A DNA stretch of 64,000 nt from Ohtaekwangia koreensis (GTDB lineage Bacteria; Bacteroidota; Bacteroidia; Cytophagales; Cyclobacteriaceae), in contig NZ_FUZU01000001.1 in NCBI RefSeq assembly GCF_900167975.1, positions 2,813,331 to 2,877,330 of the forward strand. Reading direction: 5' to 3'. The first letter of the stretch is position 1. Every line of letters starts with the position of its first letter. A model generated the notes under the pieces. It was not told the DNA's origin and did no database searches. It was given only the letters and a program-made list of their open reading frames with translations. Below, piece by piece: positions 6,516 through 33,707 of this stretch. The position numbers and the translations under genes were made by a program.

Positions 6516-6517
6516 TA

Positions 6518-7665: not shown

Positions 7666-7666
7666 T

Positions 7667-8370: not shown

Positions 8371-8375
8371 CTTTT

Positions 8376-8510: not shown

Positions 8511-8529
8511 ACATTTTTATTACTCCGCT

Positions 8530-15710: not shown

Positions 15711-15729
15711 GCGTTAAGGTTCTATTTTG

Positions 15730-17223: not shown

Positions 17224-17227
17224 AACA

Positions 17228-18486: not shown

Positions 18487-20616
18487 ATGAAAGAATTTAT
18501 CAGAAAAAATGCAGTCGTCTTGGCCGTAGGGTTGATCATGTTGCTCATGATATTGGGAGCCAGCCTCATTTTGAATAACAAGGCTAGTATGGTAAAGAAC
18601 AATATCATACAAAAGGAATCTGAGAGCATTACGATGGCAACCAACGACCTGCTTTATCACTCACTTCATATCATTGATTTGGGTGTCAGGATTTACGGTT
18701 TCACCAAAAAGGAAGAAATGCTCAACGATGTCAAAAGAGCTTTTCATGATATGGATCCAACTTTTGAAACTTTGGAAGCCAGGCTTGCGGCCCAATCCTT
18801 CAAGGGCGCGGATGTAAAAAAACTTCATAAACATTATCTGGACTATGCCCGGTTCAATGAGCAAATGATAGAGAAGGCAAGGCTCGACAGCATGGAGGTG
18901 TTCAAAAGCATGCTTGCAGAAGATAAGGGTACGGAGTTATGGAAACATTGGTATGAGGTATCTGAAAAAATAAAGGCTTTCGAAGCTGAGCAAAGCCTGC
19001 AGGCAGTTACCAGCTATGAGGCGGCCCAGAACAACACGATCTATTTACAGCTGTTAATGTTATCGTTAGGTCTTCCCACTTTAGGCTTTATTATTTTCAA
19101 AATTAAAAATGATGATCTGGCGCTCCGGAACTTGCTTGTGAACTTGGAAGAGAACAACCGGCAATACATTTTCAATCCAGGGACTGAGCTGCTCGCCAAT
19201 GATCCTAAAACAGTCATAGACCATTCAATCCATCGCTTTAAAGAAGCCTCGGAATTGATCAAACGTATTGCCAGCGGTGACTTCGAAGCCGATTGGAATG
19301 GACTTACCATTACTAACCGCAACCTGAATGAAGATAATCTGGCCGGCGAGCTCCTGAAGATGCGGGAGAATATGAAACGCGTCAGAGAAGAGGATGAAAA
19401 AAGATTATGGAGCACCGAAGGGCTGGCTGCTTTCTCGGAAATAGTGCGTAATAATCAGGACCAGCTGGAAAAACTAGCCCACGAGACGCTCATTTACCTC
19501 TGCCGTTATCTTGATGTGCAGCAGGGAAGTCTATTCATTGTAAGTCAGGACGAACAGCAAAACGAAGACTATCTGGAAATGGCGGCTTGTTATGCCTTCA
19601 ACAAGAAAAAACACCTGCAAAAACGTATCAACATCGGGGAAGGCGTCGTAGGGCAGGCTTACCTGGAAAAAGAAACCACCTTGCTGAGCAAAGTGCCCAA
19701 CGGCTATACCAGCGTCACTTCAGGTCTTGGTGAAGCGACCCCTACGTGCCTGATTGTTGTTCCGTTGATATATAACGATCAGGTTGCCGGGGTACTTGAA
19801 TTGGCTGGATTCCAAGTTTTTGCCGATTACCAGATCGCCTTTCTGGAGAAAGCCGGTGAGTTTGTCGCCTCAGCCATCACGACGGTGAAAATTGCGCAGA
19901 ATATGCGACGTATCCTGCAAGCATCGCAACAACAGGCAGAAGAGCTCAAAGCCGCCGAAGAAGAAATGCGTCAGAATATGGAAGAACTCCAGGCAACCCA
20001 GGAGGAAACGGACCGCCGGGGAAATGAACTGGAACGGGCCAATGCCGAAGCAGAAGTGCAAAAGCAGCTGATGGTTCAAAACATAGAAAAGTTGAAAGAA
20101 AAGGAAAGAGAAAACGAGGTTCAGGCTGAAGAATTGCGCCAGAATTTAGAAGCATTGGCTTCTACGCAAACCGAACTGGAAAACAGTAAGCAAAAAATAC
20201 AAGCCATTCTTAACAAATCTCCCATGGGCATCCTGGTTGCCGATCAGCAAGGGAGTATTTCCCTCAGCAATCAGCCTCTGACAGCCCTGACCGGCTTTAC
20301 CCACGAAGAACTGGAGAAACATGCTTTTCAAACCTCCTTTAAATTTCTGCAACTCGGAAAGTTGCGGGAGGGCGATAAGAAACGCACCAAGACGATCCGG
20401 AAAGATGGTACTTCTTTCATGACCGAGGTCTATGTGACCACTTTGGAAGCGTCCTGGTTGCTCTATGTACGAGACGTAAGTATGGAGGTACAACGGGAGC
20501 AGCAGCTGGGGAAAAGTATGGAAAACGCTGAGCATCTCCGACGGAAAGCTGCCGAACACGAAGCAGAGCTCATGGCGAGAATCAGTCAATTGGAGAAAAA
20601 AGAACCACTTACATAA
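18487..20616 (+). CDS. Membrane sensor with GAF and PAS domains and coiled coil, no kinase domain
   Basis: 709 residues. A transmembrane helix at ~9-31 (VVLAVGLIMLLMILGASLIL), a periplasmic helical region to ~175 resembling CHASE3-type sensors, a second helix near 180-202 (LQLLMLSLGLPTLGFIIF), then a HAMP-like segment. A GAF domain covers roughly 325-460 (LCRYLDVQQGSLFIV, INIGEGVVGQAYLEKETTLL, LIVVPLIYNDQVAGVLELAG). A long coiled coil follows (~470-585), and a PAS domain sits at ~575-680 (ILNKSPMGILVADQQGSISL, LYVRDVSMEVQREQQ). There is no HisKA, HATPase, GGDEF or methyl-accepting signature, so the output must be by protein contact. The next gene, 21 bp downstream, is the best candidate partner. 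Confidence 0.85.
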   Translation: MKEFIRKNAVVLAVGLIMLLMILGASLILNNKASMVKNNIIQKESESITMATNDLLYHSLHIIDLGVRIYGFTKKEEMLNDVKRAFHDMDPTFETLEARLAAQSFKGADVKKLHKHYLDYARFNEQMIEKARLDSMEVFKSMLAEDKGTELWKHWYEVSEKIKAFEAEQSLQAVTSYEAAQNNTIYLQLLMLSLGLPTLGFIIFKIKNDDLALRNLLVNLEENNRQYIFNPGTELLANDPKTVIDHSIHRFKEASELIKRIASGDFEADWNGLTITNRNLNEDNLAGELLKMRENMKRVREEDEKRLWSTEGLAAFSEIVRNNQDQLEKLAHETLIYLCRYLDVQQGSLFIVSQDEQQNEDYLEMAACYAFNKKKHLQKRINIGEGVVGQAYLEKETTLLSKVPNGYTSVTSGLGEATPTCLIVVPLIYNDQVAGVLELAGFQVFADYQIAFLEKAGEFVASAITTVKIAQNMRRILQASQQQAEELKAAEEEMRQNMEELQATQEETDRRGNELERANAEAEVQKQLMVQNIEKLKEKERENEVQAEELRQNLEALASTQTELENSKQKIQAILNKSPMGILVADQQGSISLSNQPLTALTGFTHEELEKHAFQTSFKFLQLGKLREGDKKRTKTIRKDGTSFMTEVYVTTLEASWLLYVRDVSMEVQREQQLGKSMENAEHLRRKAAEHEAELMARISQLEKKEPLT

Positions 20617-20637
20617 ACAATCATAAAAAATACAATT

Positions 20638-21153
20638 ATGCCATTAATGCAAGGAAAGTACACAATCCTCACAGTGACATTAGCAATAGTGTCTTCGCCC
20701 GACATCGCAAAGACCATAGACGCTTATCTGGAAGAGCACCTGGGGCTCACTCACCACGAATTAGATCCGGAAGAGTTCTATGATATATCGATTTTTGTTG
20801 ATTGTATGGCGATTTACTGCGACTCGTTCCCTGACCCTACCAAAGCGGTGATTGAACTTGGAAAAAGAATATACCCGACTAATAAATGGACGGGCGCATT
20901 GCCTGCACACCTAAAAACGCCCCTGGACTTTATTGTCTTTGAAGCCGAAGGATTCAAAAATGCCTTTAGTCCGGATGTGGTACAACGCAAAATCCTGGAA
21001 ACAACGGAGCGTTCTGTTACGATGTATGCTCCTTCCCCTGGCTATGTCAAGGAGATGATGATAGGGGTTTGGCTGGGAATCCTGGAAATGATTGATATCA
21101 ACAGTGGGCAAGTAGAAGAAATCGCTATCGATACTTGGCGAATCAGCTGGTAA
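20638..21153 (+). CDS. Protein of unknown function, partner of the GAF/PAS sensor
   Basis: 171 residues, no signal peptide, acidic. I do not recognise the family with confidence. Visible features are an alpha/beta start (YTILTVTLAIVSSPDIAKTI), a conserved-looking middle (PTNKWTGALPAHLKTPLDFI) and the end PGYVKEMMIGVWLGILEMID, a pattern reminiscent of small ligand-binding proteins of the heme-NO-binding/V4R type, but this is only an impression. It is 21 bp downstream of the GAF/PAS membrane protein on the same strand, so it is probably co-transcribed and works in the same signalling path. Confidence 0.7.
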   Translation: MPLMQGKYTILTVTLAIVSSPDIAKTIDAYLEEHLGLTHHELDPEEFYDISIFVDCMAIYCDSFPDPTKAVIELGKRIYPTNKWTGALPAHLKTPLDFIVFEAEGFKNAFSPDVVQRKILETTERSVTMYAPSPGYVKEMMIGVWLGILEMIDINSGQVEEIAIDTWRISW

Positions 21154-21539
21154 GTATGTTATAATGAAGTCAGCCATGTCCAGAGTATTCAAGTACAAGT
21201 CGCCTGCAACTACAGGGTCGCGTTATATGCACCTGAAGGTCTGTGATTGATAACAATATTTTCTTCATATAGGTATATGTGATAGTACAGACTACAACGA
21301 CAGTATGTGGTAAATATACTTGTTCATGGAATGATACGATAGTAATCAAAATGTGGGTACGCGTATATCTGCTTGCTAGTTTGTTTATGGCGTCTATGCG
21401 AAATGGCTCCCAACCTTAAGAACCGATTCAGGACTTTTAAGGTTAATTCCGATATGTTGATCCTTGGTCAGGGCGCTTACTATACGGAAAATGATACTGA
21501 CCTTCCTTGTTCTCCTAGATATTTTTGATACACGGAAAG
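21154..21539. other. Intergenic region between convergent genes
   Basis: No gene recognised. An 8-bp inverted repeat (AACCTTAA near 21413 and TTAAGGTT near 21437) could form a weak hairpin but lacks a T-run. Confidence 0.4.
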
Positions 21540-23924
21540 TTATTCAGATCGTATCACTTCGATGGGATTTCTCAGGGCTGCATATATAGTTTGTGAACAG
21601 ATAACGGTCAGACCGATAAGCAACAGTATGACCACTCCGACAGCGTGCAGCAGTAAGCCTGGTTGAATCCGGTAAGTATATTCCTGAAGAATGGACTCAC
21701 ATGTGATGTAACAAACCGGTAATGCGAGACAACATGCCAGTAAAATAAGCAGTATAAATTTCCTGGAAATGAGTATAGTAATCTGACCAGTGTTGGCTCC
21801 CATGACTTTCCGAATTCCGATTTCGCTGGCGCGGGCTTTTGTGTGAAACATAACAATACCGATAAGTCCGAGTGAGGAGATTAAAACAGTGATGCACGAG
21901 AGAGAACTGATCATTTTGAAATCATCCAGCTTGATGAAATCATTGCTGTGAAAATCATTTTCAAATATACTATACTCCAGCGGGTAGTCGCGTTTGACTG
22001 CGGTCGATAGTTGTTGAACCTTGCGCAAGGTTCCATACATCTCACCGGATTTCGCCTTTACGGTAAGTGTCGAGAACTTGTCGGGTATATACCGGATCAG
22101 AAACGGTTTGATAGGTTGTTTAAGCCCCTGCACATGAAAATTTTTAATGACACCAGTAATTTTTAGGGAAAGGGAATCAATGGTAATGGATTGTCCGATA
22201 GCCTCAAGCGGTGTTTTGTATTTGAGACGCGAAGCCGCTTCTTCATTTATTAAAACAGTTGTCTCATTGCTGCCTTGCATCCGATCGGAAAAGTTGGTGC
22301 CAGCCAGCAAGGTGAGACCATACACCGGGATAAAGTTTTCATCCGCAGAGAAATATATAGCATCGATTGAATCAGGCTGGTTGTGTACCTGGCAATGCAT
22401 GGGCTGTGAAAATACGGGACGACCGGAGGATGCTGAAATCTGCTCGATCGTTGTTTCCTGCTCCAATGCGTTTTTGAAATATGCTATATCCACCGGTGGC
22501 AGGGTAATGTTTAGTATATTACTTCGATCCACACCATAGTCTGCCCGTGATATATAGCGGGTTTGTCCAATCATAACCAGCGATACTGTGATGAATAGTA
22601 GAGATACCGAGAATTGAATGGTTATTAAAGCTTTTTGCCATACCGGTGTGCGTGCTTCTCCCAATGTAATTTTATTCTTTAATGCTGTTGTCAGTTTTAC
22701 TTTTGATAACGCGATGGAAGGAAAGATGCCGCAGACAAAACCCGTGAGTATTGCAAATACAAAGAATACGGTATATAATTTGAAGTCGGGAGCTTGATTG
22801 ACTTCCCGCGCAAGATTGCTTGTAAGTGGTATAAAGTCCGTAAGGAACAATGCCAGCCCGAATGAGATCAGGGCAATTAGCATCGCCTCTGTGATGAATT
22901 GATGAATCAGGTGGATTTTCGTTGCTCCGGATATTTTCCGAATACCAATCTCTTTTACGCGACTGAATATTTTCGCGATAGTAAGGTTCATATAATTGAA
23001 AGCCGCGAGCAACAGCATGAGGACGGATATAATCAGCGGTATATACGGAACCGTTCGCGCATTACGCGATTCGAAATACAGGGTAGGAGAGTATACAAGG
23101 TCGTTAAGAGATTGCGCTATAAATTCCCGGTGGTCTACGGTTTCATGCATCACAGCATGCTTCATGGCATAGGTATCGGTCTCGATGAGTATACGATTAA
23201 CTTCATTCGGTGTGATGTCCTCGTTGGTAATGATATAGGTTTGCGTGTTGTAGATATCGCCCCAGCCGATCGGAATATTGATACGGTCAGACTGCGTGAG
23301 TGAAGGTAGTGTTGCCATAGACAAATACACATCGTACTCCATCCTCGAAGAGAACGGAGGCTTTTGCATTACACCCGTTACGGTAAACTCACCATATTTA
23401 CCCATTGACAACGGTTTTCCTACGGGATTTTGATTGCCGAAAAGCCGATGTGCAGCATCTTTGCTGAGTACAGCGGTATAGGCTTTACTTAAAGCGTGAA
23501 GTGGATCGCCTGTCGCAAGTTTGAATCCGAATACATGGAAGAAATCAGGATCGGCAAACACATTCTCGGTCTCAAATTCTTCGTTGTTCACTTGAATCTT
23601 TACCGATTCATTTACATCTGTTACAATGCGTGTTACCCGCTCGATAACGGAGTATTGGTCTTTCAAGTGGCTGGCCAGCAGGTAAGGCGATGTTGCAAAA
23701 TAATCAGCGTCACCTGATTTGGTAAATTGCCGGGTCGTGATTCGATAGGTGCGGTCGGGGAGCGGATGGAAGCTGTCAACATCAAAAGCATTTTTTGCCA
23801 TACTCAGCACGAATAGCCCGACTGACATGCTGGTAGCAAGACCAATGATGTTAACTATAGAAATGAATTTGTGTTTCAGTAGGTTTCGCGCTGCTATAAA
23901 TATATAGTTCTTTAACATTTCCAT
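21540..23924 (-). CDS. FtsX/MacB-like ABC transporter permease, possible peptide exporter
   Basis: 794 residues, the full two-half FtsX architecture of Bacteroidota. The N-terminal helix lies near 18-42 (FISIVNIIGLATSMSVGLFV), followed by a MacB-type periplasmic domain, three helices with KEIGIRKISGATKIHL between them (~290-400), a second start helix (~425-450), a second periplasmic domain, and the last three helices with ASEIGIRKVMGANTGQI, ending RNPIEVIRSE. No ATPase gene is in the window, so it would need one encoded elsewhere. It lies 25 bp downstream of the signal peptidase gene and is the last gene of the putative peptide operon (21540-30653). Export of the processed peptide is an attractive but unproven role; such permeases are very common in these genomes. 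Confidence 0.92.
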   Translation of the reverse strand: MEMLKNYIFIAARNLLKHKFISIVNIIGLATSMSVGLFVLSMAKNAFDVDSFHPLPDRTYRITTRQFTKSGDADYFATSPYLLASHLKDQYSVIERVTRIVTDVNESVKIQVNNEEFETENVFADPDFFHVFGFKLATGDPLHALSKAYTAVLSKDAAHRLFGNQNPVGKPLSMGKYGEFTVTGVMQKPPFSSRMEYDVYLSMATLPSLTQSDRINIPIGWGDIYNTQTYIITNEDITPNEVNRILIETDTYAMKHAVMHETVDHREFIAQSLNDLVYSPTLYFESRNARTVPYIPLIISVLMLLLAAFNYMNLTIAKIFSRVKEIGIRKISGATKIHLIHQFITEAMLIALISFGLALFLTDFIPLTSNLAREVNQAPDFKLYTVFFVFAILTGFVCGIFPSIALSKVKLTTALKNKITLGEARTPVWQKALITIQFSVSLLFITVSLVMIGQTRYISRADYGVDRSNILNITLPPVDIAYFKNALEQETTIEQISASSGRPVFSQPMHCQVHNQPDSIDAIYFSADENFIPVYGLTLLAGTNFSDRMQGSNETTVLINEEAASRLKYKTPLEAIGQSITIDSLSLKITGVIKNFHVQGLKQPIKPFLIRYIPDKFSTLTVKAKSGEMYGTLRKVQQLSTAVKRDYPLEYSIFENDFHSNDFIKLDDFKMISSLSCITVLISSLGLIGIVMFHTKARASEIGIRKVMGANTGQITILISRKFILLILLACCLALPVCYITCESILQEYTYRIQPGLLLHAVGVVILLLIGLTVICSQTIYAALRNPIEVIRSE

Positions 23925-23949
23925 GTGGCGATCTGATTATGGTTCGATT

Positions 23950-25068
23950 TTACTGTGGAGACTGAAAGATCCTCTTCCAGCGGATTTCGTTCCGGTATAT
24001 ATCTTTGGAGAAATATATAAGTACAACTTTCCCGATGATGTGATCTTCCGGAATAAATCCCCAGTGGCGGGAGTCCATTGATTTATCCCGGTTGTCGCCT
24101 AGCGCGAAGTAGTAATCTTTTCTGAATTGATACTCGGCTATTGGCTTATCGTCAATGTATAGACTCCCTTGGCGAATCTCTGCACGGTCGTTGTCTTCCA
24201 GGTTTTTGATCAGAGGAAAATAGCGTGCTATATTATCTGCATCCATTTTCAGCTTCAGGCCTTTTCGGGGAATCATAATCTTTCCAAAATGATCTTTGTT
24301 CCAATGTAAAGGCAGCCAATGCGGGTAAGCATTGAAATCCGAAAAATTGTCTGATTCCCTTCTGGTAATTTTCAGTACGTTCGTGTCCTTTTCAATCTTT
24401 TGTGCACCCAGTCCCGTAGTGTATATATCGTACTGAAAGTATTCTTTTGTAAACGGGTTCTCAATTAATCTGACCTGGTTCCTATAGTCAAATATATCCC
24501 ATTGTTTCGCCCCGGCTGCATCCAGCTTTTTACGGGTGCGAAGATCATGCCGAAAACTAACGGCATCCGTTACTTCACGTTGATCGTTGCAATATAATAT
24601 ACCATCTTCCAGCGAGATGATGTCGCCGGGAAGTGCAACAATACGCTTATTGATGACTTCATTTATTTCGTACGTGTCTTCCTGCATCGGGAGGTTAAAC
24701 ACCACGATATCGCCACGTGTTAAAGACGATAGTGCTCCGGTTCGGAGATATGGTATTATAGGATTTGAATATAGACGCAGGTTAAGATACTCCAGCAATG
24801 GGTTGCGATGATCGATCCAGGGGAGTTGCAGTATCCTGGGTATACGTGCTCCGTAATGAAGTTTGGAAACCAGTACACGATCGCCCTCCAGCAGCGTTCC
24901 TTCCATAGACGGACCGGTAACTTTGAAATTCCCGATCAGAAATATACTAACTATATATATAGCAAGTGCTGTATAAAGAATGGTCCGGACGGATCGCCAG
25001 AGCAGTGTACGTAATGTTTCTTTTGGGGCTGCTATATCTTCAACTTTTTCCAGTAGCATGGTTCTCAT
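23950..25068 (-). CDS. lepB: Signal peptidase I
   Basis: 372 residues. A cytoplasmic N-terminus is followed by a transmembrane helix (~29-46), then the catalytic Ser in FKVTGPSMEGTLLEGDRV (Ser54), the general-base Lys in INKRIVALPGD (Lys141), and the family's C-terminal box ALGDNRDKSMDSRHWGFIP. Length and the large insertion between boxes are normal for Bacteroidota. The enzyme removes signal peptides on the outer face of the inner membrane. Here the gene overlaps the preceding one by 29 bp and sits within an operon that also encodes a small peptide with a plausible signal-peptidase site, so it may be a dedicated enzyme rather than the housekeeping copy. Confidence 0.95.
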   Translation of the reverse strand: MRTMLLEKVEDIAAPKETLRTLLWRSVRTILYTALAIYIVSIFLIGNFKVTGPSMEGTLLEGDRVLVSKLHYGARIPRILQLPWIDHRNPLLEYLNLRLYSNPIIPYLRTGALSSLTRGDIVVFNLPMQEDTYEINEVINKRIVALPGDIISLEDGILYCNDQREVTDAVSFRHDLRTRKKLDAAGAKQWDIFDYRNQVRLIENPFTKEYFQYDIYTTGLGAQKIEKDTNVLKITRRESDNFSDFNAYPHWLPLHWNKDHFGKIMIPRKGLKLKMDADNIARYFPLIKNLEDNDRAEIRQGSLYIDDKPIAEYQFRKDYYFALGDNRDKSMDSRHWGFIPEDHIIGKVVLIYFSKDIYRNEIRWKRIFQSPQ

Positions 25069-25882
25069 CGTTAATAATCTTACTGTATTCTGTTAGAAGC
25101 AGGTTTTCAAACTCGGTAACCGATTGTAAAAGACCGTTCAGCGTATAGCCAGGCGTTGTGAGATACGATAAAAGCATGTTCGGCAAGGTTGCATATTCCG
25201 GATAGTGCTTACAAAACGATTGTGTGCATATAGTCACGTCCCTCGTAAAAATGCGTTCCTTTTCACTTACCAGTTCAAAGGCTGCACGAAGCAACAGGCG
25301 AATTACAAAGTGTATATGTGCACTGAGTGTTTCGGGTGCTGCTGTACGTACTGCTTGGCGCAATGCTTCTGCACGCTGATGAACTTGTGGCAACAGGTGA
25401 ATCGAGTCTCTACCGATCCTGAAGTTTCTGAACGAGGATTCAATAGCTATACCGGCAACCCGGTAGTAAATAATCTTTACCAGGAACTGAAGGCTCCGGT
25501 TGACTTCCAGTTCGGTGTACGTTACTACTTTTACCTGGATACGTTCAATAAACATGTACCTCCCGTGCAACCATGCGGTGGTATGTCGCAGCAGAGAAGT
25601 GTGTATTGTTTGCGTATCTTCGGCTACCGAATGAGACACCAATAGCAATGGAAATATATACTTTCCGTTTTTTAGCGACATAGGATGCTTGAAGTATAAG
25701 CTCCATTGCGAGTGGTGTAATACATCGGTAATCAGTCTAATCAGACCTGTAATGATTTCCCATTCCAGTATCGACACCTGTGAAGGGTCTTCTATCAGCG
25801 GTTTGATCTGCCCCTTGGCATCTGAATGTGAAACAATACGTTTTATACTTACGTCACGATCGAGTTCGTAGAAATAGTTCAT
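25040..25882 (-). CDS. Unknown protein, C-terminal half resembling nucleotidyltransferase-associated helical domain
   Basis: 280 residues, cytosolic, no signal. The C-terminal third (LLLRAAFELVSEKERIFTRD, then VTICTQSFCKHYPEYATLP and a Leu-rich helix) resembles the helical domain at the end of certain stand-alone nucleotidyltransferases, where the pattern is F-T-R-D-x-x-x-C-x-x-x-F-x-K-x-Y-P. The N-terminal part does not show the G-S-x-x-x-G...D-x-D active-site motif, so it may be a non-catalytic relative; I regard this assignment as tentative. It starts 6 bp after the JmjC oxygenase gene and overlaps the signal peptidase gene by 29 bp, so it is translationally coupled within the operon. Confidence 0.7.
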   Translation of the reverse strand: MNYFYELDRDVSIKRIVSHSDAKGQIKPLIEDPSQVSILEWEIITGLIRLITDVLHHSQWSLYFKHPMSLKNGKYIFPLLLVSHSVAEDTQTIHTSLLRHTTAWLHGRYMFIERIQVKVVTYTELEVNRSLQFLVKIIYYRVAGIAIESSFRNFRIGRDSIHLLPQVHQRAEALRQAVRTAAPETLSAHIHFVIRLLLRAAFELVSEKERIFTRDVTICTQSFCKHYPEYATLPNMLLSYLTTPGYTLNGLLQSVTEFENLLLTEYSKIINDENHATGKS

Positions 25883-25888
25883 ACCTGC

Positions 25889-26998
25889 CTAGTGTTCCAT
25901 CTGGAGTGAGCCTTGCTTTACCATGTCTTTCAGTTTAAATTTTATTTTACCCATCGTTGCGGCATTGGCATTGGATAGCTTACCGCTTTCAATTGCCTGC
26001 ATCAGATCGTTTACCTGCTGTTGATATTGCGAGTCTTTGGAGTGATTTTGGAGAAATGTATTGATGTCATCCACTGTATTCACACTGTCGATCGCCAGGG
26101 TATTTCTGAATACACCGCTAAACCGTTCCTGCTCCAGGTTTAGGTTGCGTTCTTTATTGCAAGTGGCTACTATATCTTCGAGCAGTTTGGTTGACTCGTG
26201 TATCAGGTCGTTAAATGATTCATTTGAGTTGAATTCATCCTGTATCGGGAAAAACGATTTTCTGAAGAATGGATGTTGTTCCGCCTCCTTTACAAATTTC
26301 TCCAGTATATCAATTTTTCGAAGCGGATGTAGCCCGAGCGTAATATGAATCGATGGAGAGTCGGTTGTATAGGCATCGTGTACTACTCCGCACGGCACGT
26401 AGAGAATATCATTCGCTTGCAGGTTTATAGCATGGGTAGGTCCGGATTTATACCTTTCCTTGTCAGCATTGGTAAGCATTATGCTTTTGGTAGGCGACTC
26501 GTAGGGTATATCATACAGGTTCCAAACCTTGCTGCCATATACCTGCAGTACGAAAACTTCGTGTGGATCTACATGCGGATCAAAGCCTTTCGAGTTAGCA
26601 GGCGTTATGTATATATTGGTGTGTACACGCATACCCAATTCGCGACTGATATCTTCAAGAAGTCTATCAAGCTTTGGAAAGTATAGATTGGGAGATTGAA
26701 GAACGATGGTGTTCCCCTTGTTGAACAGGTCCAGTATTTTTCCGCGATCGAGTGTTTGCATCACCGATATGGAACTGGCAGTATATAAATCGCGATTTAG
26801 TTCAGCACCTCCACCTACCATACGCAGGAACGGATAGATCAGAATTTCGGAATCAAGCAGATCACCTATTTCGTCCATGGTGATCAGATTGTTCACATAT
26901 GTATCATTTTTGGACAGGAACAACGGAACCTTGCACCAGTTATTCGTGAGAAATTCGTTCACGGAAATTGGATTGAGAATGGATTCAAGTGTTTTCAT
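25889..26998 (-). CDS. JmjC/cupin-type Fe(II)/2-oxoglutarate oxygenase
   Basis: 369 residues. The jelly-roll core carries the metal triad His142-x-Asp144 in FDPHVDPHEVFVLQVYGSKV and the distal His207 in ILYVPCGVVHDAYTTD, followed by the typical SIHITLGLHP strand; the C-terminal ~130 residues are helical, as in ribosomal-oxygenase (YcfD-like) proteins. Members hydroxylate side chains (Arg, His, Asp, Asn) of proteins or act on peptides in RiPP pathways. The gene overlaps the thioredoxin-like gene upstream by 4 bp and lies four genes below the small Cys-rich peptide; I infer that the peptide is its substrate. An unrelated ribosomal target remains possible. Confidence 0.88.
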   Translation of the reverse strand: MKTLESILNPISVNEFLTNNWCKVPLFLSKNDTYVNNLITMDEIGDLLDSEILIYPFLRMVGGGAELNRDLYTASSISVMQTLDRGKILDLFNKGNTIVLQSPNLYFPKLDRLLEDISRELGMRVHTNIYITPANSKGFDPHVDPHEVFVLQVYGSKVWNLYDIPYESPTKSIMLTNADKERYKSGPTHAINLQANDILYVPCGVVHDAYTTDSPSIHITLGLHPLRKIDILEKFVKEAEQHPFFRKSFFPIQDEFNSNESFNDLIHESTKLLEDIVATCNKERNLNLEQERFSGVFRNTLAIDSVNTVDDINTFLQNHSKDSQYQQQVNDLMQAIESGKLSNANAATMGKIKFKLKDMVKQGSLQMEH

Positions 26999-27498
26999 AA
27001 GTTGGCTATTTTGTCTAAGTCTTCATATATATCGGGAGTATCAGCGCTGGCTTCCTTTTCAGAAATAACCTGGCCGTTTTGGAGTAGTAGTAGTTTGGGA
27101 TATTGCTTCAGGTAATTCCAGTCAATTACTTTGTCAGTGTCTATATAAACGTCTGGATTCGAGGCAGCTTTTTCTCCGAGGCGAAGCTTCGCAGACTTCA
27201 ATGAGTCGTGTCCGGTAATAATGAAAAGTATATTTTTCTTCCTGCCTTCATCATAGTTCACGATCAGGTAGTTTTCTGCGGTAGATATACAGCCCGTACA
27301 TCCATAGAACGGAATCAGAAAAATGGCTTTGTACCTAGTTAAGTCTTTTTTTGAGATCCGGGATATCTCGCTCGTAAACTGCTGGTATCCCGATCGCCCA
27401 GATCCGGATTGGCAACTCGTAAAGAATATGATTATCCATAACAACATTGCCGGTATGCATTTATCGGGATATCGTACGGTGACTATATAGTTATTCAT
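26995..27498 (-). CDS. Thioredoxin-like lipoprotein with CxxC
   Basis: 167 residues. The signal region MLLWIIIFFTSC gives a lipobox with Cys29. The mature domain has a thioredoxin-like order of elements: AIFLIPFYGCTGCIST with C67-T-G-C70 as the active-site pair, NILFIITGHDSLK, a DVYIDTDKV strand, and PKLLLLQNGQVISEKEA near the end. It would be a periplasm-facing, membrane-anchored thiol protein. It overlaps the DUF4221 gene upstream by 8 bp and the JmjC gene downstream by 4 bp. With a four-Cys secreted peptide in the same operon, a role in forming or checking its disulfides is a natural guess. Confidence 0.75.
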   Translation of the reverse strand: MNNYIVTVRYPDKCIPAMLLWIIIFFTSCQSGSGRSGYQQFTSEISRISKKDLTRYKAIFLIPFYGCTGCISTAENYLIVNYDEGRKKNILFIITGHDSLKSAKLRLGEKAASNPDVYIDTDKVIDWNYLKQYPKLLLLQNGQVISEKEASADTPDIYEDLDKIANL

Positions 27499-28675
27499 AG
27501 TTGTTTATGTGTTCAGGTAGAAAACAGTCATATACCAGGAATTCATCGTTGTGAGCGTCTTTTCGCTTTATGAAAAAACCGGCTTCTGAAACGAAGAAAT
27601 TATTGATACTATATCGATCCACAGGAAGAACAATTTCTCCGACTCTTTTAAAGCGGTCTGTTAAAAGTATAACAGAATTCTGCTTTTGTCCGGAGGCAGC
27701 AGGGAAGTCCGTAAAGCGGTAATACATCTTTCGAAAAGGATCATATACTATATTCAGGTATGCAAAGCTCTGTGCATAGCGCTGCTCTATTTCACCCTTG
27801 TGAAAGTCTACCAGCATCGGGTGAAAATCGAATGATTCAAGTGGTGAAAAGAAGGTGCTGGGAGCAACCGTCAGGTGTATCTTCTTCGTACGCGTGTTAT
27901 AGATCGTGAGCGCATGATCGGCCATAAAACTGAAGACCAATAGCCCATCCGTTGGATTAAAGCAATAAGACAACCGCTCGAAACCGGTCAGACCGCCCCA
28001 GTTGGCATGCCAATATATTTCCGGGTAGTTCACCTGGTTGGCGATTTCTCCGGTTTGCAAGTTCAGGCTTATCAGCACGTTTCGTTGCTTGTCACGGGTA
28101 TAATCTCCCAGGGCAGTAGAGGGGCCCGTAAAATATACCCGGTTGTTGGTGCGATCATATTGCATCGGGGCATACGTAGTTACAAACGGATAAACTGTAA
28201 GAAAGGAATGTTTGTCCATACCGATATCACCTTGCGCAAGTTTCCCTTTTTGCTGATGTACCAGCGTCCAGCGTGATTTCTTGTAACTATAGATCAACAT
28301 GGAGTCAGCTGCGAGCATGCAAAATCCCTGTACGCCATCTTCGGCGGAGAATCCGAGGGAGTCAAGGTGAATTACCCGCGCGATGGCGTTGTGCCCCAAA
28401 TCATAGAAGTATAGATTCCGTGAAACAAAATTTAGAAACGCCAGGTATGACTTGCCCTCGAGCGCTATATATTGCTCATGGGTAGCTACTCCCGGGCTTG
28501 TTGTACTATCTAGCGGAAGTGCGAGGGAATCGGTAACAGCAAGAACAAGCGAATCCTTTTTTTCGATAGAAGTTTTCGCAATACTGGTGGTTGAAAAATA
28601 ATATAGCGTACGGTATACACGGCCGATCAAGAGAACGAAAAATATAACTATAAGTATAGGGATCAGCTTCTTCAT
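27491..28675 (-). CDS. DUF4221-like beta-propeller protein, membrane anchored
   Basis: About 394 residues from MKKLIPILIVIFFVLLIG (start 28675); an ATG nine codons earlier at 28702 is also possible. One N-terminal helix anchors it, and the rest is a repeated beta-sheet pattern typical of the six-bladed propeller proteins of Bacteroidota annotated DUF4221 (NLYFYDLGHNAIARVIHLDS, YWHANWGGLTGFERLSYCFN, HPMLVDFHKGEIEQRYAQS, YDPFRKMYYRFTDFP). Such propellers are often encoded next to small secreted peptides in this phylum, as is the case here: the peptide gene lies less than 100 bp upstream. It may bind or present the peptide at the cell envelope. Confidence 0.75.
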   Translation of the reverse strand: MKKLIPILIVIFFVLLIGRVYRTLYYFSTTSIAKTSIEKKDSLVLAVTDSLALPLDSTTSPGVATHEQYIALEGKSYLAFLNFVSRNLYFYDLGHNAIARVIHLDSLGFSAEDGVQGFCMLAADSMLIYSYKKSRWTLVHQQKGKLAQGDIGMDKHSFLTVYPFVTTYAPMQYDRTNNRVYFTGPSTALGDYTRDKQRNVLISLNLQTGEIANQVNYPEIYWHANWGGLTGFERLSYCFNPTDGLLVFSFMADHALTIYNTRTKKIHLTVAPSTFFSPLESFDFHPMLVDFHKGEIEQRYAQSFAYLNIVYDPFRKMYYRFTDFPAASGQKQNSVILLTDRFKRVGEIVLPVDRYSINNFFVSEAGFFIKRKDAHNDEFLVYDCFLPEHINNYE

Positions 28676-28757
28676 AATTGTTCTTCTTCGTCCTCTTTTC
28701 ATCGGGCCGTTGGAATTAGTTAAACATGTTCAAATGATTCTTTACAATGCTGGGATG

Positions 28758-28964
28758 TCAGACGCAATCATCCCAGAAATCGATAGCCACTACGCAGTAA
28801 GCTTCATTTGATCCGCTTATTCTGTCGCAGTCGTTCTGATCTCCTTCCGGACAAGCACTGCTGGAGATCTGAGGGATCGCCATTGACAACGATGCAACTG
28901 CCAGGCTTAATCCTACTTGTGCTTTTGGATCGCGCACAACTTTCATCAATTTTTCCTTTTCCAT
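28758..28964 (-). CDS. Small Cys-rich precursor-like peptide (putative modified, secreted peptide)
   Basis: 68 residues. A charged start (MEKEKLMKVVRDPKAQ) is followed by a hydrophobic stretch VGLSLAVASLSMAIPQI and a small-residue site SSSA that would suit signal peptidase I cleavage after Ala37. The remaining 31 residues are strongly acidic and contain four cysteines (38, 46, 57, 67), a single tyrosine (Tyr56, in GSNEAYC) and several Asp/Asn. Four Cys suggest two disulfides; the lone Tyr in an acidic setting is a credible sulfation site; Asp/Asn could be hydroxylated. Neighbours encode a sulfotransferase, a JmjC oxygenase, a thiol lipoprotein and a signal peptidase. It is not a known family to me, and coding status rests on codon pattern, position and leader-core layout. 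Confidence 0.7.
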   Translation of the reverse strand: MEKEKLMKVVRDPKAQVGLSLAVASLSMAIPQISSSACPEGDQNDCDRISGSNEAYCVVAIDFWDDCV

Positions 28965-29011
28965 AATTTTAAGGTTTTGTTTGAAAAAATGTTACACAGA
29001 ATTCTGTACTG

Positions 29012-29040
29012 CAAATATTAACAGCAACCCGCAGGAGCAA
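29012..29040 (-). promoter_or_regulatory. Candidate promoter of the peptide gene
   Basis: On the minus strand TAATATTTG (29020-29012) resembles the Bacteroidota -7 element TAnnTTTG with one deviation, and TTG at 29040-29038 stands 17 bp upstream as a -33 element. It would give a leader of about 40 nt before the peptide start. The 122-bp gap here is the largest in the operon. Confidence 0.3.
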
Positions 29041-29073
29041 CTAGTAAAAAATTACTAAAATGGAATCAGGCCT

Positions 29074-29091
29074 GATAGTATATATACTATC
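29074..29091. promoter_or_regulatory. 18-bp perfect palindrome at the sulfotransferase stop codon
   Basis: GATAGTATATATACTATC is fully self-complementary and overlaps the stop codon of the sulfotransferase gene. It could act as an operator for the downstream peptide gene or as an attenuating hairpin; there is no T-run on either side. Confidence 0.4.
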
Positions 29092-30037
29092 GGGTGAAGC
29101 ATTGTTTCAACGCATGGTAGTTTTCAAATGCATATTGTTCACAAAGCTGACGTATTATATGGCCGGCCTTCGCATGTTTAGACGCTATATCTTTGCTGAA
29201 CGGTGTGCCGTTTTTAGCATTGTTACTCATACATGCTGCTATAGCTGTGTGTGTAGTTTTCGTTACGTCCAGTTTAAAAAAGCGAAGTATATCCGGTATT
29301 GTGTCAGGAGAAATGGTCTCGTAGTTAATGGCGATAATATCTGATCGGTCTATATTTTTAACATGGTGAAGTATAATGCTGAAGAAGCTGTTAATCATTT
29401 TTACACAGTACTCCTCATTTGTAAGATGAGCAGGTAAATCAAGGTTACATTGGTTCAATATATACTTCAGCATCGGGTTGTTTCGTTGGGACAGGAACCC
29501 GCCCTGCTTTTCGAGGTTTGAGACAACTACTTCAATGGGATTTCTATACAGGAATACAATGGGAACATCTGGCCATAATTTTGTGATCCGGTCCAATACC
29601 AGGAGATTGAAGCTGGAGAACTTGATGAATACTTTCTTCTGAGTATATAAATAAGTGCTCAGTAAGCTGTTCAGCAATTTGTTCCCGCGTTGTTCCCATG
29701 CCAGATCGGTTACCGTATTACCAGTCTTAGTATAATTTACCAGCAGGCTGTTTATAGGTTGTGGTTCATTGAAGGCCAGCACATCGGCTGCTTTTTGAAT
29801 TATTCGGGTAAGGAGCGTGGAGCCACAGCGTGAGGTATGGAATATAAATCCGGATGGTTTTCCGGGGAGCTTGTCCCGTGCAGTCAATACGTCCAGTCTT
29901 GTTTCCAGGGTATATTCTTCCAACGCAGCGATCGCCGCCGAATTCATCACCGGAAGTTCTGTAAAACGCTTAATGTTCAGCCACTTTACCTTCTCGCCGG
30001 GAAGGTCGAGGTGTACAGGTATATAATGCTTTTGCAT
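29087..30037 (-). CDS. Sulfotransferase-family protein
   Basis: 316 residues, cytosolic. The 5'-phosphosulfate-binding loop is visible as FIFHTSRCGSTLLTRII (residues ~64-80), and the 3'-phosphate-binding motif as VPIVFLYRNPIEVVVSNLEK (~158-177), both in the order and spacing of PAPS-dependent sulfotransferases. These enzymes transfer sulfate from PAPS to hydroxyl groups of carbohydrates, peptides (tyrosine) or small molecules. The gene begins 25 bp after the LuxR-type regulator and is followed by the small peptide gene, whose mature part has one tyrosine among acidic residues; a tyrosylprotein role like that of RaxST is a reasonable but untested inference. No PAPS synthesis genes are in the window. 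Confidence 0.88.
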   Translation of the reverse strand: MQKHYIPVHLDLPGEKVKWLNIKRFTELPVMNSAAIAALEEYTLETRLDVLTARDKLPGKPSGFIFHTSRCGSTLLTRIIQKAADVLAFNEPQPINSLLVNYTKTGNTVTDLAWEQRGNKLLNSLLSTYLYTQKKVFIKFSSFNLLVLDRITKLWPDVPIVFLYRNPIEVVVSNLEKQGGFLSQRNNPMLKYILNQCNLDLPAHLTNEEYCVKMINSFFSIILHHVKNIDRSDIIAINYETISPDTIPDILRFFKLDVTKTTHTAIAACMSNNAKNGTPFSKDIASKHAKAGHIIRQLCEQYAFENYHALKQCFTR

Positions 30038-30062
30038 CTCTGAATGGAAGTTTTGATGGCAA

Positions 30063-30653
30063 TTAACTCACGGCAATACAGGTAGCCGCATCCCGCAATT
30101 GACTGGCGAAGTAGGGAAGCTGGCCGCATCCATCGAGACCTGCTTTTCTTGCAATATTTACTTTGTGATTTTTAACGGTGTGGTAACTTCTGCAAAGTAT
30201 ACCAGATATTTTTGTGTTCGAGTACCCGATGGACAGGAAGAACAATATTTCAATTTCGGCAATGCTGAGTTCCTGGAGACTATCGAGGATTTCAGGAAAG
30301 CGACCATCCTTGACACCTATGGATGGATAGTGGTATATAGAGAAACTATTAGCCGCAGGTTGATAGCACAATATTCCTGATAGTCCTATTCTTTTAAGGA
30401 AAGATGCAAAGGGTTTAAACCAATGATCAGATGAAATCAACACACTTGTTTTCCTGGAGAGAAAAATAACGAAATATAATAGTTCAAGAAATGGTCTTGC
30501 ATGACAGTTGAACGTTAATAAAACGAAATTGTAATCTTCATATCGAAGCGGAGTACCCAAGAATTGTTCAATGGAAGTGCTGGTCTGGATTTCAATGGAA
30601 AGAACGAGGTAACGCCTGCCATCGATCATCATGTTTTGTACGGTGTAACGCAT
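30063..30653 (-). CDS. LuxR-type helix-turn-helix regulator
   Basis: 196 residues. The C-terminal domain (~128-185) is a LuxR/NarL-type HTH: LSIAEIEILFFLSIGYSNTK, ISGILCRSYHTVKNHKVNIA, RKAGL. The N-terminal part has an alpha/beta pattern (FVLLTFNCHARPFLELLYFV, KTSVLISSDHW) that resembles a degenerate receiver or ligand-binding domain without an obvious phosphorylation site. It is the first gene of the putative peptide operon and presumably controls it. Such solo regulators often respond to a bound ligand or partner protein. Confidence 0.8.
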   Translation of the reverse strand: MRYTVQNMMIDGRRYLVLSIEIQTSTSIEQFLGTPLRYEDYNFVLLTFNCHARPFLELLYFVIFLSRKTSVLISSDHWFKPFASFLKRIGLSGILCYQPAANSFSIYHYPSIGVKDGRFPEILDSLQELSIAEIEILFFLSIGYSNTKISGILCRSYHTVKNHKVNIARKAGLDGCGQLPYFASQLRDAATCIAVS

Positions 30654-31214
30654 GGTGGATAACTTAAATTACATTTAACATTTTAAAATATACTATTGCT
30701 AACGGTAGGAGAGGACAGAGATGAAATGTGTGTGTTGGTCTGCGGGTAGTCTTTCCGTTGGACAGCGAAATCGTTCAGCTAAATTGTCCCGGATATTGGG
30801 TCGGCATAGTTACTATTTTTTTTGAAGCACCGCGCAAGGTTGATCGGATGATCGATAGATTTTTCTTCAAGCGACAAAATCCGAGTGATAAAGGGTTCAG
30901 AAATCGCTGTCATGTGAAGTGTGAAATATGTGAAGGTTTAAACACATCATACAAGTATATCCTGACAGGTATACATCTGTCGGTATATATTTACCTAATA
31001 AATCGGGTATGTGGTCTATGGTATATGTTTTAACGTATGGGAAGATAAAAGTCTTGCTACCTCAACATCTGAAAAGTATACTTCACATTTCCCAGAAGCT
31101 GTCGAGCGTGATCATGCGGGTTTAAAGAAGGAGATGAGGTCGGGGCCACTGATCTTTGTTGAAGACGGAAACATTACGGAGTTCTGTATGGATATGGGCT
31201 GATCACTTTCCCGT
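30654..31214. other. Intergenic region upstream of the peptide operon
   Basis: About 560 bp with no convincing gene. The AT-rich stretch just before 30653 should hold the operon promoter. Confidence 0.45.
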
Positions 31215-31500
31215 TTACGTTACATTTGGTTGCCAGTGCCATTCTTCTTCGAGGTATCGTGCAGGATGAGCCTGAACGCTTCGAACTGCTCGAAGTACAC
31301 CGCGCGTATACCCGAATCGTTGTATTCGAGGGATATAGCGATAACGGCAGACCTGGGACCCATTCGACAGTAAATGTCCTTGATTGTGGTGTGATAAATT
31401 AATCCAGTTAATATTCAGTCCTTCGGCAGAAAGAACCGGACTCATATACTTGCCAGAGACTGTTCAGAATTCCTGTCGTATACGTGACGACTATTCGCGT
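31215..31500 (-). pseudogene. DUF4268-like protein, frameshifted remnant
   Basis: Minus-strand pieces in different frames line up with a small Bacteroidota protein I associate with DUF4268: RQEF then an in-frame stop where Trp is expected, GKYMSPVLSAEGLNINWIN, then in a second frame YCRMGPRSAVIAISLEYNDS and GIRAVYFEQFEAFRLILHD, and finally in the first frame LEEEWHWQPNVT and a stop at 31215-31217. At least two indels and one nonsense change show decay. The family name is from memory; the reading of one broken gene is the firmer part. Confidence 0.6.
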
Positions 31501-31697
31501 GTAAACATGCGCTATAGTCAAAACAAATTGGTAGTCGCATGCCGTTGAATGAATGAAACCGAGTGCTTTTGCTAAAATCTATTTCCGTTCCCTCAAATTT
31601 CTTTCGCTTATGATCGACAAAATGCCCAGTAAAAACTTTGACTATGAATGGAGTATATTCCATTTTTTGCCGCCTTAGTTTTACTGGTTTCTAAAAC
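31501..31697. other. Short region without recognisable gene
   Basis: A 73-codon minus-strand frame runs into the pseudogene next to it but shows no family features; it may be the decayed 5' part of the same or another gene. Confidence 0.35.
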
Positions 31698-32534
31698 TTA
31701 TCTAAGAAAATCAAATGCAATCTTGTTAATAAGATCAGGTCTTTCGGCAAATACCTCATGTGTGGTATTGGGCAAAACACAATATTGACTATTCTTTATT
31801 AGCCTGTGCATTTCCTGTCCATGCTCGATTGAAATCATATCCCGGTCACCAAGAACAATCATAACCGGAATGTTTATACGCTCATAGGTGCTAGGCGGGA
31901 AATACTCTTTCGCATATACCACCCGGTTCATGTTGTCCACCAATATTTTCCAATCCTTTTTTGGGGTCAATGTATTATACCATGCAATGTCTTTCGCATT
32001 GATCGAAGCCCAGTATTCCAATGTGGGAGGTTTAACCGAATCAATCGGAAATCCTTCCGGCATGGCAAATCCTCTTATGCCGTTGTTGGCACCCACGGCA
32101 ATTACCTTTTTAATCTTGTCAGGCCGTCTTTCAGCCAGGAGAAGACTAACAATGGCACCATCACTCCATCCCATGACATAGGCGCTATCAATCTGTAGTG
32201 AGTCCATGAGCTGCGAGATAAAATCCGTTAGTAAATCATAGCTTAAACTGTCGGTCTGTTCAGACCTGCCTTGGCCAGGCGTATCCGGTGTGATAACCCG
32301 ATAGTGTTTTGAAAGGTCGGGTATACATTTGCTAAAGTCTCGTATACTTCTATTAATCCCACCGCCCGAAAGCAACAGGAGCGGAGTTCCCTGTCCATAT
32401 TCCTCATAATAAATGTCTTTGCCGTTAATGTTTATTACGCTTCCGTTATTGGAACCAAAATCAATTTTATCGGTTCCTGTATGGCAACTTGTCCAAAGGA
32501 GTGAAACGAAAATAAGTCTGATTACTATTTTCAT
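31698..32534 (-). CDS. Alpha/beta hydrolase lipoprotein
   Basis: 278 residues. The N-terminus MKIVIRLIFVSLLWTSC is a lipoprotein signal (Cys17). The fold is the classical alpha/beta hydrolase: YYEEYGQGTPLLLLSGGG with the oxyanion region, YRVITPDTPGQGRSEQT, the nucleophile elbow VMGWSDGAIVSLL (Ser), the acid in PVMIVLGDRDM (Asp) and the base in NTTHEVF (His). It is therefore a complete catalytic triad in a periplasmic or envelope-anchored enzyme. Substrate unknown; relatives include ester hydrolases and haloperoxidase-like proteins. It stands alone on the minus strand between a pseudogene and an esterase gene. Confidence 0.9.
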   Translation of the reverse strand: MKIVIRLIFVSLLWTSCHTGTDKIDFGSNNGSVININGKDIYYEEYGQGTPLLLLSGGGINRSIRDFSKCIPDLSKHYRVITPDTPGQGRSEQTDSLSYDLLTDFISQLMDSLQIDSAYVMGWSDGAIVSLLLAERRPDKIKKVIAVGANNGIRGFAMPEGFPIDSVKPPTLEYWASINAKDIAWYNTLTPKKDWKILVDNMNRVVYAKEYFPPSTYERINIPVMIVLGDRDMISIEHGQEMHRLIKNSQYCVLPNTTHEVFAERPDLINKIAFDFLR

Positions 32535-32783
32535 GGCTCTGATAGTTTGTGCTTAAATGTGTCAGTCATGTTTATATATACCAACGCGCTATACATTGGC
32601 TGGATTGTAAGAAAAGTCAAGCGAATGGAACATTGCCTGAATAAAGATATAAATCCAAAATCAGATATTTTACAAAAAGCATGTCCGGCAGGACTAAGCA
32701 GCTTATCGCTGGGCTTAAGAACAAATGGTTATCACACAAGACATGAAAGTATACTTTAAATGATCACAGGCTCGATCGCAAGC

Positions 32784-33707
32784 TCATCTGAATAACAGTT
32801 GGGAGAAAACATACAGATCATTTCTCCATACATTAAATTCATGTGCACCAGGCTCGGTATAAAATATATGAGGGACGTTCTTGGCCTTTAGAAAATCATG
32901 CGTTCGTTGACTGACCCATAGCAGATAGTCATCAACACCACACGATATCCATATCAATTTCATGTTCCTTATTTTATGAAGATCCGGCACTAACACTTCC
33001 GGTACTCGTGTATTGGGTGCCGGGGCAAACCCGCCAACATAAGCGAATGTACCGGGATTGCCCAACCCGAAATTCAATGCCTGTCCTCCTCCCATGGACA
33101 GCCCGGCAATTGCCCTGAAGCGGCGGTCTTTATATACCGGGTAACTTTTTTCTACCTGCGGGATGAGATCATCGAGCAGGTCACGTTCGAAAGTGGCAAA
33201 AGCCTTCACCTTAGCGCTGTCAAAGAAGTCCCCTATAGGTCTGTCGTTTTTCATAGCACGACCATTGGGCATGACAACGATCATAGGCTGCAGCTTCTTT
33301 TCAGCATAGAGGTTATCGAGGATAATTTGTGGCGGAGCATTGCACGACCACTCTATATCGCTACCGGCAAGGCCATGCAAAAGATATAGGACAGGATATT
33401 TTTTATTAAGCAAAAATCCAGGAGGAGTATATACAAGCGCCCGGCGGGTAACACCTACCGTTTTGGATTGATAATATAGGGTATCAATCCTCCCATGGGG
33501 TATAGCAGCCCGCAGGGAGTCAAAGCCTTTTACAGGTGGGGTGAATACGGTCTGAGAATTTGCTTCTGCCCAAATAAGTATTGAAAAAATAATAAACACG
33601 GCACCCTTCAACACCGTGTTGTGGCTATAGCAAGTGCTATACTTTGAAGTAGCAACAGGACAGGAGGTCATAGAATTGATCAGGTATTCTGTTTTTAGTC
33701 TGCTCAT
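32784..33707 (-). CDS. Secreted esterase of the EstD/Fes type (carbohydrate esterase-like)
   Basis: About 307 residues from MSRLKTEYLI (start 33707); an ATG 15 codons further upstream is less likely. A hydrophobic signal (AVFIIFSILIWAEANSQ) precedes the mature enzyme. It belongs to the esterase family with TLYYQSKTVGVTRRALVYTP, YPVLYLLHGLAGSDIEW, PMIVVMPNGRA, the nucleophile in IAGLSMGGGQALNFGL (Ser) and the catalytic His in EPGAHEFNVW. In Bacteroidota such proteins include feruloyl and acetyl xylan esterases, which would fit the xylan-type locus downstream, although this gene lies outside the operons there. Confidence 0.88.
   Translation of the reverse strand: MSRLKTEYLINSMTSCPVATSKYSTCYSHNTVLKGAVFIIFSILIWAEANSQTVFTPPVKGFDSLRAAIPHGRIDTLYYQSKTVGVTRRALVYTPPGFLLNKKYPVLYLLHGLAGSDIEWSCNAPPQIILDNLYAEKKLQPMIVVMPNGRAMKNDRPIGDFFDSAKVKAFATFERDLLDDLIPQVEKSYPVYKDRRFRAIAGLSMGGGQALNFGLGNPGTFAYVGGFAPAPNTRVPEVLVPDLHKIRNMKLIWISCGVDDYLLWVSQRTHDFLKAKNVPHIFYTEPGAHEFNVWRNDLYVFSQLLFR

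Follow-up and report, generated by a model that had tools for sequence, protein, structure and literature searches.

We cautiously favor the view that a nine-gene operon on the minus strand of Ohtaekwangia koreensis (Bacteroidota), located at 21540-30653 of the 64,000-nt stretch of genomic DNA analysed here (the window), produces a ribosomal peptide that is modified and secreted, being hydroxylated, perhaps sulfated, exported by Sec and trimmed. The gene set, its conservation, the catalytic residues and two recurring sub-sets of genes, namely a peptide-DUF4221-CxxC lipoprotein module and a JmjC oxygenase with an Asp-rich peptide, are read directly from the genomes compared; from these we infer the chemical steps, their order, the export route and the role of the product as a signal or an antagonist. 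In all three loci found, a conserved precursor gene stands beside candidate tailoring enzymes, as in systems for ribosomally synthesized and post-translationally modified peptides (RiPPs).

The operon is conserved as a unit. The protein of 280 residues was located in 3/245 sampled genomes of the family (3/7 of the genus), and all three loci carry the nine genes in the same order, so that the single conserved unit proposed in an initial annotation of this DNA, peptide included, was recovered; loci with the enzymes and no peptide, which that annotation had named as contrary evidence, were absent among these three, all of one genus. A pattern-based scan of genome contigs, sensitive mainly to close relatives, recovered the same two other genomes, both of them metagenome-assembled. 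Identity to the copy in one of them (G197) ranges from 72% for the sulfotransferase to 92% for the JmjC protein (91% for the peptide), with a synonymous divergence (dS) of 0.65-1.47 and a ratio of nonsynonymous to synonymous divergence (dN/dS) of 0.05-0.16 across the nine genes, indicating purifying selection on all of them, the 68-residue peptide included. DNA similarity between G197 and the window spans 21540-31517 and ends at both sides, and G197 holds this block of about 10 kb in different genomic surroundings; those in G177 largely match those of the window. A DUF4268 gene at the block's upstream end is intact in G197 (109.9 bits) and broken in the window, where an open reading frame (ORF) of the remnant gave no match in a family search. 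A search for the empty site with the neighbouring gene returned many paralogues and was uninformative. Among 296 genomes of the phylum, a profile of the 280-residue protein gave one further match (E=0.0075, with internal stops), which we take as chance.

The putative precursor has a basic n-region, a hydrophobic stretch and an Asp-rich tail, with cysteines at positions 38, 46, 57 and 67. Its relatives, in the same place in 3/3 loci, are 97% and 91% (G197) identical to the window copy, with dN/dS of 0.12 and 0.07 (the latter at dS 0.65); because of this conserved place and low dN/dS, the gene is very likely translated and retained. The window and G197 peptides differ at six positions, two in residues 1-29 and four in the remaining 39; leader and tail are thus equally conserved, a pattern consistent with enzymatic recognition. 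Ser27-Met28-Ala29 is identical in all three peptides and fits the site rule of signal peptidases. A cut after Ala29 is therefore likely, leaving residues 30-68 as a mature peptide of 39 residues with five invariant hydroxyl residues (Ser34, Ser35, Ser36, Ser50 and Ser52). This site is preferred because Ala37, after which a core starting at Cys38 would be cut, is His in G197; the 31-residue core first suggested from Cys38 falls with it. The window peptide has six Asp in its last 31 residues, a count matched or exceeded in 1.1% of the 268 other predicted genes compared. No match to the peptide was found in plasmids or in viral contigs, and its profile, run against the 245 sampled family genomes, returned the three known copies and seven matches at E 0.01-0.05, three of them with internal stops, that we take as chance.

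Two lines of comparison place this peptide. The first is its neighbour, the DUF4221 protein (presumably a propeller; related to PDB entry 3s9j, E=1.8e-10; one hydropathy segment at residues 6-24), which is followed by a CxxC lipoprotein. Relatives of the lipoprotein occur in 7/395 genomes of the class, its own included, and in 4/4 loci read, the DUF4221 gene precedes the lipoprotein gene, with a small signal-bearing Cys peptide before it in three (L048, L050 and L047); two weaker loci with stops were left out (L051 served in the control only). A survey starting from DUF4221 gave 21 loci in 12/149 class genomes (the window being L059), with a signal-bearing Cys peptide directly upstream in 7/21 and a CxxC lipoprotein directly downstream in 5/21, the window included in both. 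With the window excluded and DUF4221 rows taken out of the control, these frequencies are 6/20 vs. 9/104 (p=0.016) and 4/20 vs. 0/104 (p=0.0005), respectively. The full control comprised 110 genes, 15 of them with an upstream peptide, including 6 DUF4221 and 3 JmjC genes; removal of all nine such rows (JmjC genes only where matched) yields p=0.005 for the upstream peptide, the fairer test being the one that keeps the JmjC rows (p=0.016). The upstream peptide of L054 is a member of NVEALA (PF14055, 53 bits, cut-off 27). The trio of peptide, DUF4221 protein and CxxC lipoprotein thus recurs as a module in Bacteroidota, with NVEALA peptides among its members. The window peptide, encoded directly upstream of the DUF4221 gene and bearing both a signal and cysteines, is of the DUF4221-partner kind by place and build, and is not a PF14055 member (no match to that model at E<=10). 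As for the lipoprotein, its profile matched the thiol-disulfide oxidoreductase 2lja at E=0.098, which is not significant, and copper chaperones at chance level (E 0.6-0.9); its structure model is too poor to use, with a predicted local distance difference test (pLDDT) score of 43.5. Among loci of this type we also observed secreted peptides rich in Cys that precede DUF4221 or similar lipoprotein genes in L048 (10617-10817, 17725-17949) and L050 (6887-7087, 9537-9791), with genes of resistance-nodulation-division or membrane-fusion exporter type, named by eye, nearby and no JmjC or sulfotransferase matches, as well as four tandem DUF4221 genes at G130:C7:298679-303076 (L052, L064, L067, L069).

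The second comparison concerns the JmjC protein, which carries the metal triad H142-x-D144 ... H207, matches JmjC_2, and has MINA53 and NO66 as its nearest relatives in the PDB (4bxf, E=1.9e-18). At E<=1e-30 its nearest relatives are found in 12/395 class genomes, its own included, at 13 loci outside the operon (L025-L037). By Pfam, 7/13 of these loci contain RiPP-type genes: PqqD in L026, L028, L029 and L032, Asn synthase in L026 and L035, LanB in L033 and a LanM-type DUF4135 protein in L036. Sulfotransferases are present in at least 3/13 (L026, L028, L035), in a scan that covered picked genes only. The JmjC relatives do stand in peptide loci, and these neighbours suggest that the window enzyme may act on the adjacent peptide. 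The 12 assigned JmjC-partner peptides have 3-8 Asp in their last 31 residues, compared to 1-3 in 9 DUF4221-partner peptides (p=1e-4; p=0.003 with one value per genus, 9 vs. 5 genera). This comparison drew on 11/13 of the JmjC loci and on L103, one of three loci inspected (L102, L103, L104) among 93 plasmid records with JmjC matches; L032, L102 and L104 (no peptide assigned), L036 (peptides of the nitrile hydratase leader peptide, NHLP, type) and a second, near-identical L025 peptide were left out. The window peptide has the scaffold of the DUF4221 group and the acidity of the JmjC group, and this combination is our main reason to think that the JmjC enzyme acts on it, probably at Asp.

Several arrangements at the JmjC loci are recorded for themselves. 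L025, in the same genome (G000:C4:635000-652000), holds at 5218-8748 three tandem JmjC genes beside two near-identical peptides of 69/70 residues with identical tails (CNSETEPADGAGFSSTGDNDDVLF). In L030 (6936-7223), L031 (7526-7819), L034 (8256-8555) and L037 (5855-6127), from three genomes of two other genera, a peptide of 90-99 residues directly precedes the JmjC gene; the leader of these peptides ends in a hydrophobic, lipobox-like stretch and their tail is Asp-rich, the two that were scanned gave no Pfam match, and this two-gene theme may be an unnamed class. L035 (3627-13735) combines JmjC, a PF05118 Asp/Asn hydroxylase, two PF00685 sulfotransferases, an Asn synthase and a 57-residue peptide.

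The Asp counts and the leader also bear on a quite improbable alternative, in which the product is a secreted peptide of NVEALA/DUF4221 type, unmodified beyond signal cleavage and disulfides, and the sulfotransferase, JmjC and nucleotidyltransferase-like genes serve other tasks. L048 and L050 do hold peptide, DUF4221 and CxxC lipoprotein genes with no sulfotransferase or JmjC match within 18 kb (tblastn E<=0.05), but the six Asp of the window peptide exceed the 1-3 of DUF4221 partners, and its leader is nearly invariant. That the hydroxylated, Asp- and Cys-rich product binds metal, as a secreted metallophore-like peptide, instead of serving as a signal or antagonist, is in our estimate very improbable: acidic side chains and four cysteines would suit it, but a Pfam scan of the nine genes found no TonB-type receptor.

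Sulfation of the predicted hydroxylated peptide is the next question. The sulfotransferase passes the PF13469 cut-off and has both motifs for 3'-phosphoadenosine 5'-phosphosulfate (PAPS), the 5'-phosphosulfate-binding HTSRCGST from residue 67 and the 3'-phosphate-binding YRNPIEVVVSN from residue 164, with Glu91 as a candidate catalytic base; the important motifs follow PMC6637879. PAPS supply is likely, since an adenosine 5'-phosphosulfate (APS) kinase is present in the genome. The enzyme had no PDB match at E<=0.01 and no match in plasmids. Tyrosine sulfation of the kind known for RaxX (PMC6637879), which the initial annotation had invoked, is unlikely because the only Tyr of the tail (Tyr56) is His in G197. 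A RaxX-like product, i.e. a tyrosine-sulfated peptide imitating a host peptide, is accordingly scarcely credible: a small peptide gene adjoins the sulfotransferase gene, as in raxX-raxST (PMC6637879), but in addition to the missing Tyr, Pfam found no RaxA/RaxB-type pair in the operon, and the PDB search for the sulfotransferase was negative as given above. The peptide may nonetheless be sulfated elsewhere, methanobactin being a known RiPP with sulfate on a residue that is not Tyr (PMC3621798); sulfotransferases have also been noted in some lasso clusters, with no clear role (PMC4289311).

Several points weigh against the overall reading: 1) the peptide is known here from its gene, the operon turned up in a single genus, and a Pfam scan of it showed no RiPP recognition element (RRE)-type domain; 2) the partner peptides at JmjC loci were assigned by eye, and with the presumed L036 cores (0, 0, 1, 0 and 1 Asp) included, the per-genus p rises to 0.013; 3) with the DUF4221 control as first run, the upstream peptide is not significantly enriched (6/20 vs. 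15/110, p=0.07), the downstream lipoprotein gives p=0.03 with DUF4221 rows left in, and the rows are not independent, several of the loci belonging to one genus; 4) the thioredoxin-like nature of the lipoprotein is assigned from its motif alone; 5) the sulfotransferase is the fastest-evolving gene (71-72% identity vs. 78-92% for the other eight), and its distant relatives in the family number two (L038 and L039, 31-32% identity), at neither of which a peptide was assigned (L039 has an adjacent PF05118 Asp/Asn hydroxylase, L038 none).

The low conservation of the sulfotransferase also speaks for the most serious competing explanation, one that we consider unlikely, namely that the peptide is a substrate of the JmjC enzyme only and the sulfotransferase rides along, modifying another target such as a small molecule, a lipid or an envelope glycan. 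Sulfotransfer_3 proteins have a broad range of substrates, and the peptide has no invariant Tyr. On the other hand, the sulfotransferase gene is second in a nine-gene unit kept as a block in other surroundings, at least 3/13 JmjC peptide loci carry sulfotransferases as well, and methanobactin sets a precedent for sulfation of a peptide at a residue other than Tyr (PMC3621798). The broader claim that all the enzymes act on the peptide retains, in part, the support of the conserved unit and of the JmjC neighbours, with tyrosine sulfation and the Cys38 core removed from it. More speculative and rather improbable, in our view, is a sequential reaction in which Asp or another residue is hydroxylated by JmjC and the new hydroxyl is then O-sulfated, all on one residue of a disulfide-bonded secreted peptide. 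If true, the recurrence of hydroxylase with sulfotransferase (window, L026, L028, L035, L039) would represent a general two-step chemistry for strongly acidic secreted peptides, the hydroxylase being JmjC in the window, L026, L028 and L035 and PF05118 in L035 and L039.

For the operon as a whole, we postulate that the LuxR-type regulator controls its expression and that JmjC would hydroxylate the precursor in the cytoplasm, most likely at Asp of the acidic tail; the sulfotransferase would then most likely sulfate a hydroxyl, either of Ser or newly made, rather than Tyr. Hydropathy shows no membrane segment in the sulfotransferase, JmjC, the 280-residue protein or the regulator, one each in the DUF4221 protein, the lipoprotein and the signal peptidase (LepB), and eight in the permease; as the enzymes have none, modification would precede export. 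The precursor would exit by Sec and be cut after Ala29 by the signal peptidase of the operon, one of two in the genome, with a TIGR02227 match and Ser54/Lys141, which we take to be its catalytic dyad. The CxxC lipoprotein may help set the two disulfides, the DUF4221 protein may hold or receive the product at the envelope, and the MacB/FtsX permease may move it out. The permease is the candidate exporter of a unit that has no ATPase gene; its closest NCBIfam models are ADOP (225.6 bits) and DarB (136.2 bits), both under their cut-offs, and the distance from the NF038008 cut-off of 700 separates it from the darobactin exporter DarB.

The 280-residue protein is harder to place. Residues 133-272 share 25% identity (E=1e-6) with the C-terminal part of a Pantoea plasmid protein annotated as a nucleotidyltransferase, itself just under the NTP_transf_2 cut-off (20.9 bits, cut-off 21). 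A GS...DxD catalytic motif was not seen in the operon protein, whereas the Pantoea relative has RGSVARG...SDLD; our guess is a non-catalytic, perhaps peptide-binding helper. Its structure prediction was too poor (pLDDT 44.3), and neither a PDB profile search nor a search of phages gave a match. The Pantoea gene (L091, 3632-4480), which lies inside a nonribosomal peptide locus, is the only clear relative found outside the operon.

Features of the locus are listed in Table 1, with families called when a protein exceeded the Pfam or NCBIfam cut-off; the peptide, the lipoprotein and the 280-residue protein exceeded none in these scans. The initial annotation counted nine to ten genes; nine minus-strand ORFs were confirmed in the place it gave, and its gene list agrees with the scans for the families named. 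From the regulator on, the intergenic distances are 25 (to the sulfotransferase), 122 (to the peptide), 55 (to DUF4221), -8, -4, 6, -29 and 25 bases; the overlaps of 4, 8 and 29 bp were therefore read correctly, and gaps are mostly under 60 bp (25, 55, 6, 25) apart from the 122 bp before the peptide. The regulator has a helix-turn-helix at its C-terminus and 89% identity to the G197 copy, and the Pfam scan showed no receiver-domain family in it.

Table 1. Features of the operon and its immediate upstream side, in window coordinates; scores are bits, with the family cut-off in parentheses
Feature	Position	Strand	Basis
LuxR/GerE-type regulator, 196 aa; first gene of unit	30063..30653	-	GerE 27.9 bits (23.5)
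PAPS-dependent sulfotransferase, 316 aa	29087..30037	-	Sulfotransfer_3 34.4 bits (27)
12-bp palindrome ACAGAATTCTGT, candidate operator (predicted)	28996..29007	.	identical in three species
68-aa precursor peptide (putative)	28758..28964	-	ORF, conservation; no Pfam match
DUF4221 protein, 403 aa, N-terminal membrane anchor	27491..28702	-	DUF4221 54.2 bits (23.4)
Lipoprotein, 167 aa, GCTGC (CxxC) motif	26995..27498	-	thioredoxin-like by motif only
JmjC 2-oxoglutarate oxygenase, 369 aa	25889..26998	-	JmjC_2 84.9 bits (22)
Nucleotidyltransferase-like protein, 280 aa	25040..25882	-	C-terminal match to Pantoea plasmid protein
Second signal peptidase I, 372 aa	23950..25068	-	Peptidase_S26 125.3 bits (22.9); TIGR02227 122.9 (47)
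MacB/FtsX-type ABC (ATP-binding cassette) permease, 794 aa	21540..23924	-	MacB_PCD 120.2 bits (27); FtsX 69.5 (25.5)
DUF4268 gene remnant, broken; upstream end of shared 10-kb block	31089..31508	-	intact in G197

Just upstream of the peptide gene, the palindrome ACAGAATTCTGT may be an operator. It has one exact copy; at <=2 mismatches there are 6 copies vs. 3.0 expected, a number reached by 8/100 shuffles, and a longer pattern around it matched G197 copies only, owing to one spacing base. The -33/-7 promoter pattern of Bacteroidota gave no hit in the window, while sigma-70-like sites (29 vs. 26.1 in shuffles) and terminators (7 vs. 8.0) were near their shuffled levels; within 20000-33000 there was no Rfam match, and a tRNA scan found none. 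An inverted repeat (GACAG...CTGTC) lies upstream of the regulator at 30962-30983 and, by its score, resembles a terminator of the plus strand; the aligned arms in G197 are GACTG...CAGTC, so that pairing is kept and bases differ. Elsewhere in the window, three genes at 12492-17956 resemble a mutagenesis cassette, presumably DnaE2-ImuB-ImuA.

Each known system that we compared shares part of this gene set. NVEALA (PF14055) loci have the same small Sec-type four-Cys peptide directly upstream of a DUF4221 gene (the L054 peptide), whereas the operon, whose peptide has no PF14055 match, adds JmjC, sulfotransferase, its own signal peptidase, a permease and an Asp-rich tail. JmjC or 2-oxoglutarate (2OG) hydroxylases are known in RiPP clusters, as with BipG (PMC12707348) and BpmG/PbsQ (PMC12257519), and CanE of canucin is an Asp beta-hydroxylase of the linear precursor (PMC9266682); we compare CanE with the operon's enzyme as a 2OG hydroxylase of a RiPP cluster. 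The BipG and CanE clusters likewise place a 2OG oxygenase beside a precursor peptide, the window JmjC having its metal triad and an Asp-rich partner, but their cyclase, RRE, multinuclear non-heme iron-dependent oxidative enzyme (MNIO) and protease genes are absent from the nine, which have a Sec-type leader and a signal peptidase instead. The raxX-raxSTAB system shares a sulfotransferase with a secreted peptide of about 60 residues, (PMC6637879), the operon lacking the conserved Tyr and the type I secretion pair and having a signal peptidase I instead. MbnS operons also have a sulfotransferase in a RiPP operon, with Thr as target and Cys in the core (PMC3621798), but MbnS belongs to PF00685, whereas the window enzyme is over the cut-off for PF13469 only, and there is no MbnB/MbnC among the nine genes. 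The loci L026 and L035, which we label lasso-like from their genes, each combine JmjC and PAPS sulfotransferases with a small peptide that contains Asp; they also have PqqD (L026) and Asn-synthase genes, which the operon does not have. The literature searched, which covered few subscription journals, yielded no DUF4221 or NVEALA paper and none describing this gene set. As far as could be seen, the full set is a new combination of known parts; the earlier statement that no such system is described is overstated, since no other full-set locus was encountered but two of its sub-sets recur.

This operon unites Sec-exported Cys peptides of the DUF4221/NVEALA type with JmjC-modified RiPPs, which are separate in the literature searched. 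If the peptide is indeed hydroxylated or sulfated, it would offer a first handle on the function of the recurring DUF4221-type peptides, and would indicate that cytoplasmic tailoring of a peptide is compatible with the use of Sec and a dedicated signal peptidase. For a group of JmjC enzymes, our analysis further points to Asp as the residue likely to be modified, which is directly testable.

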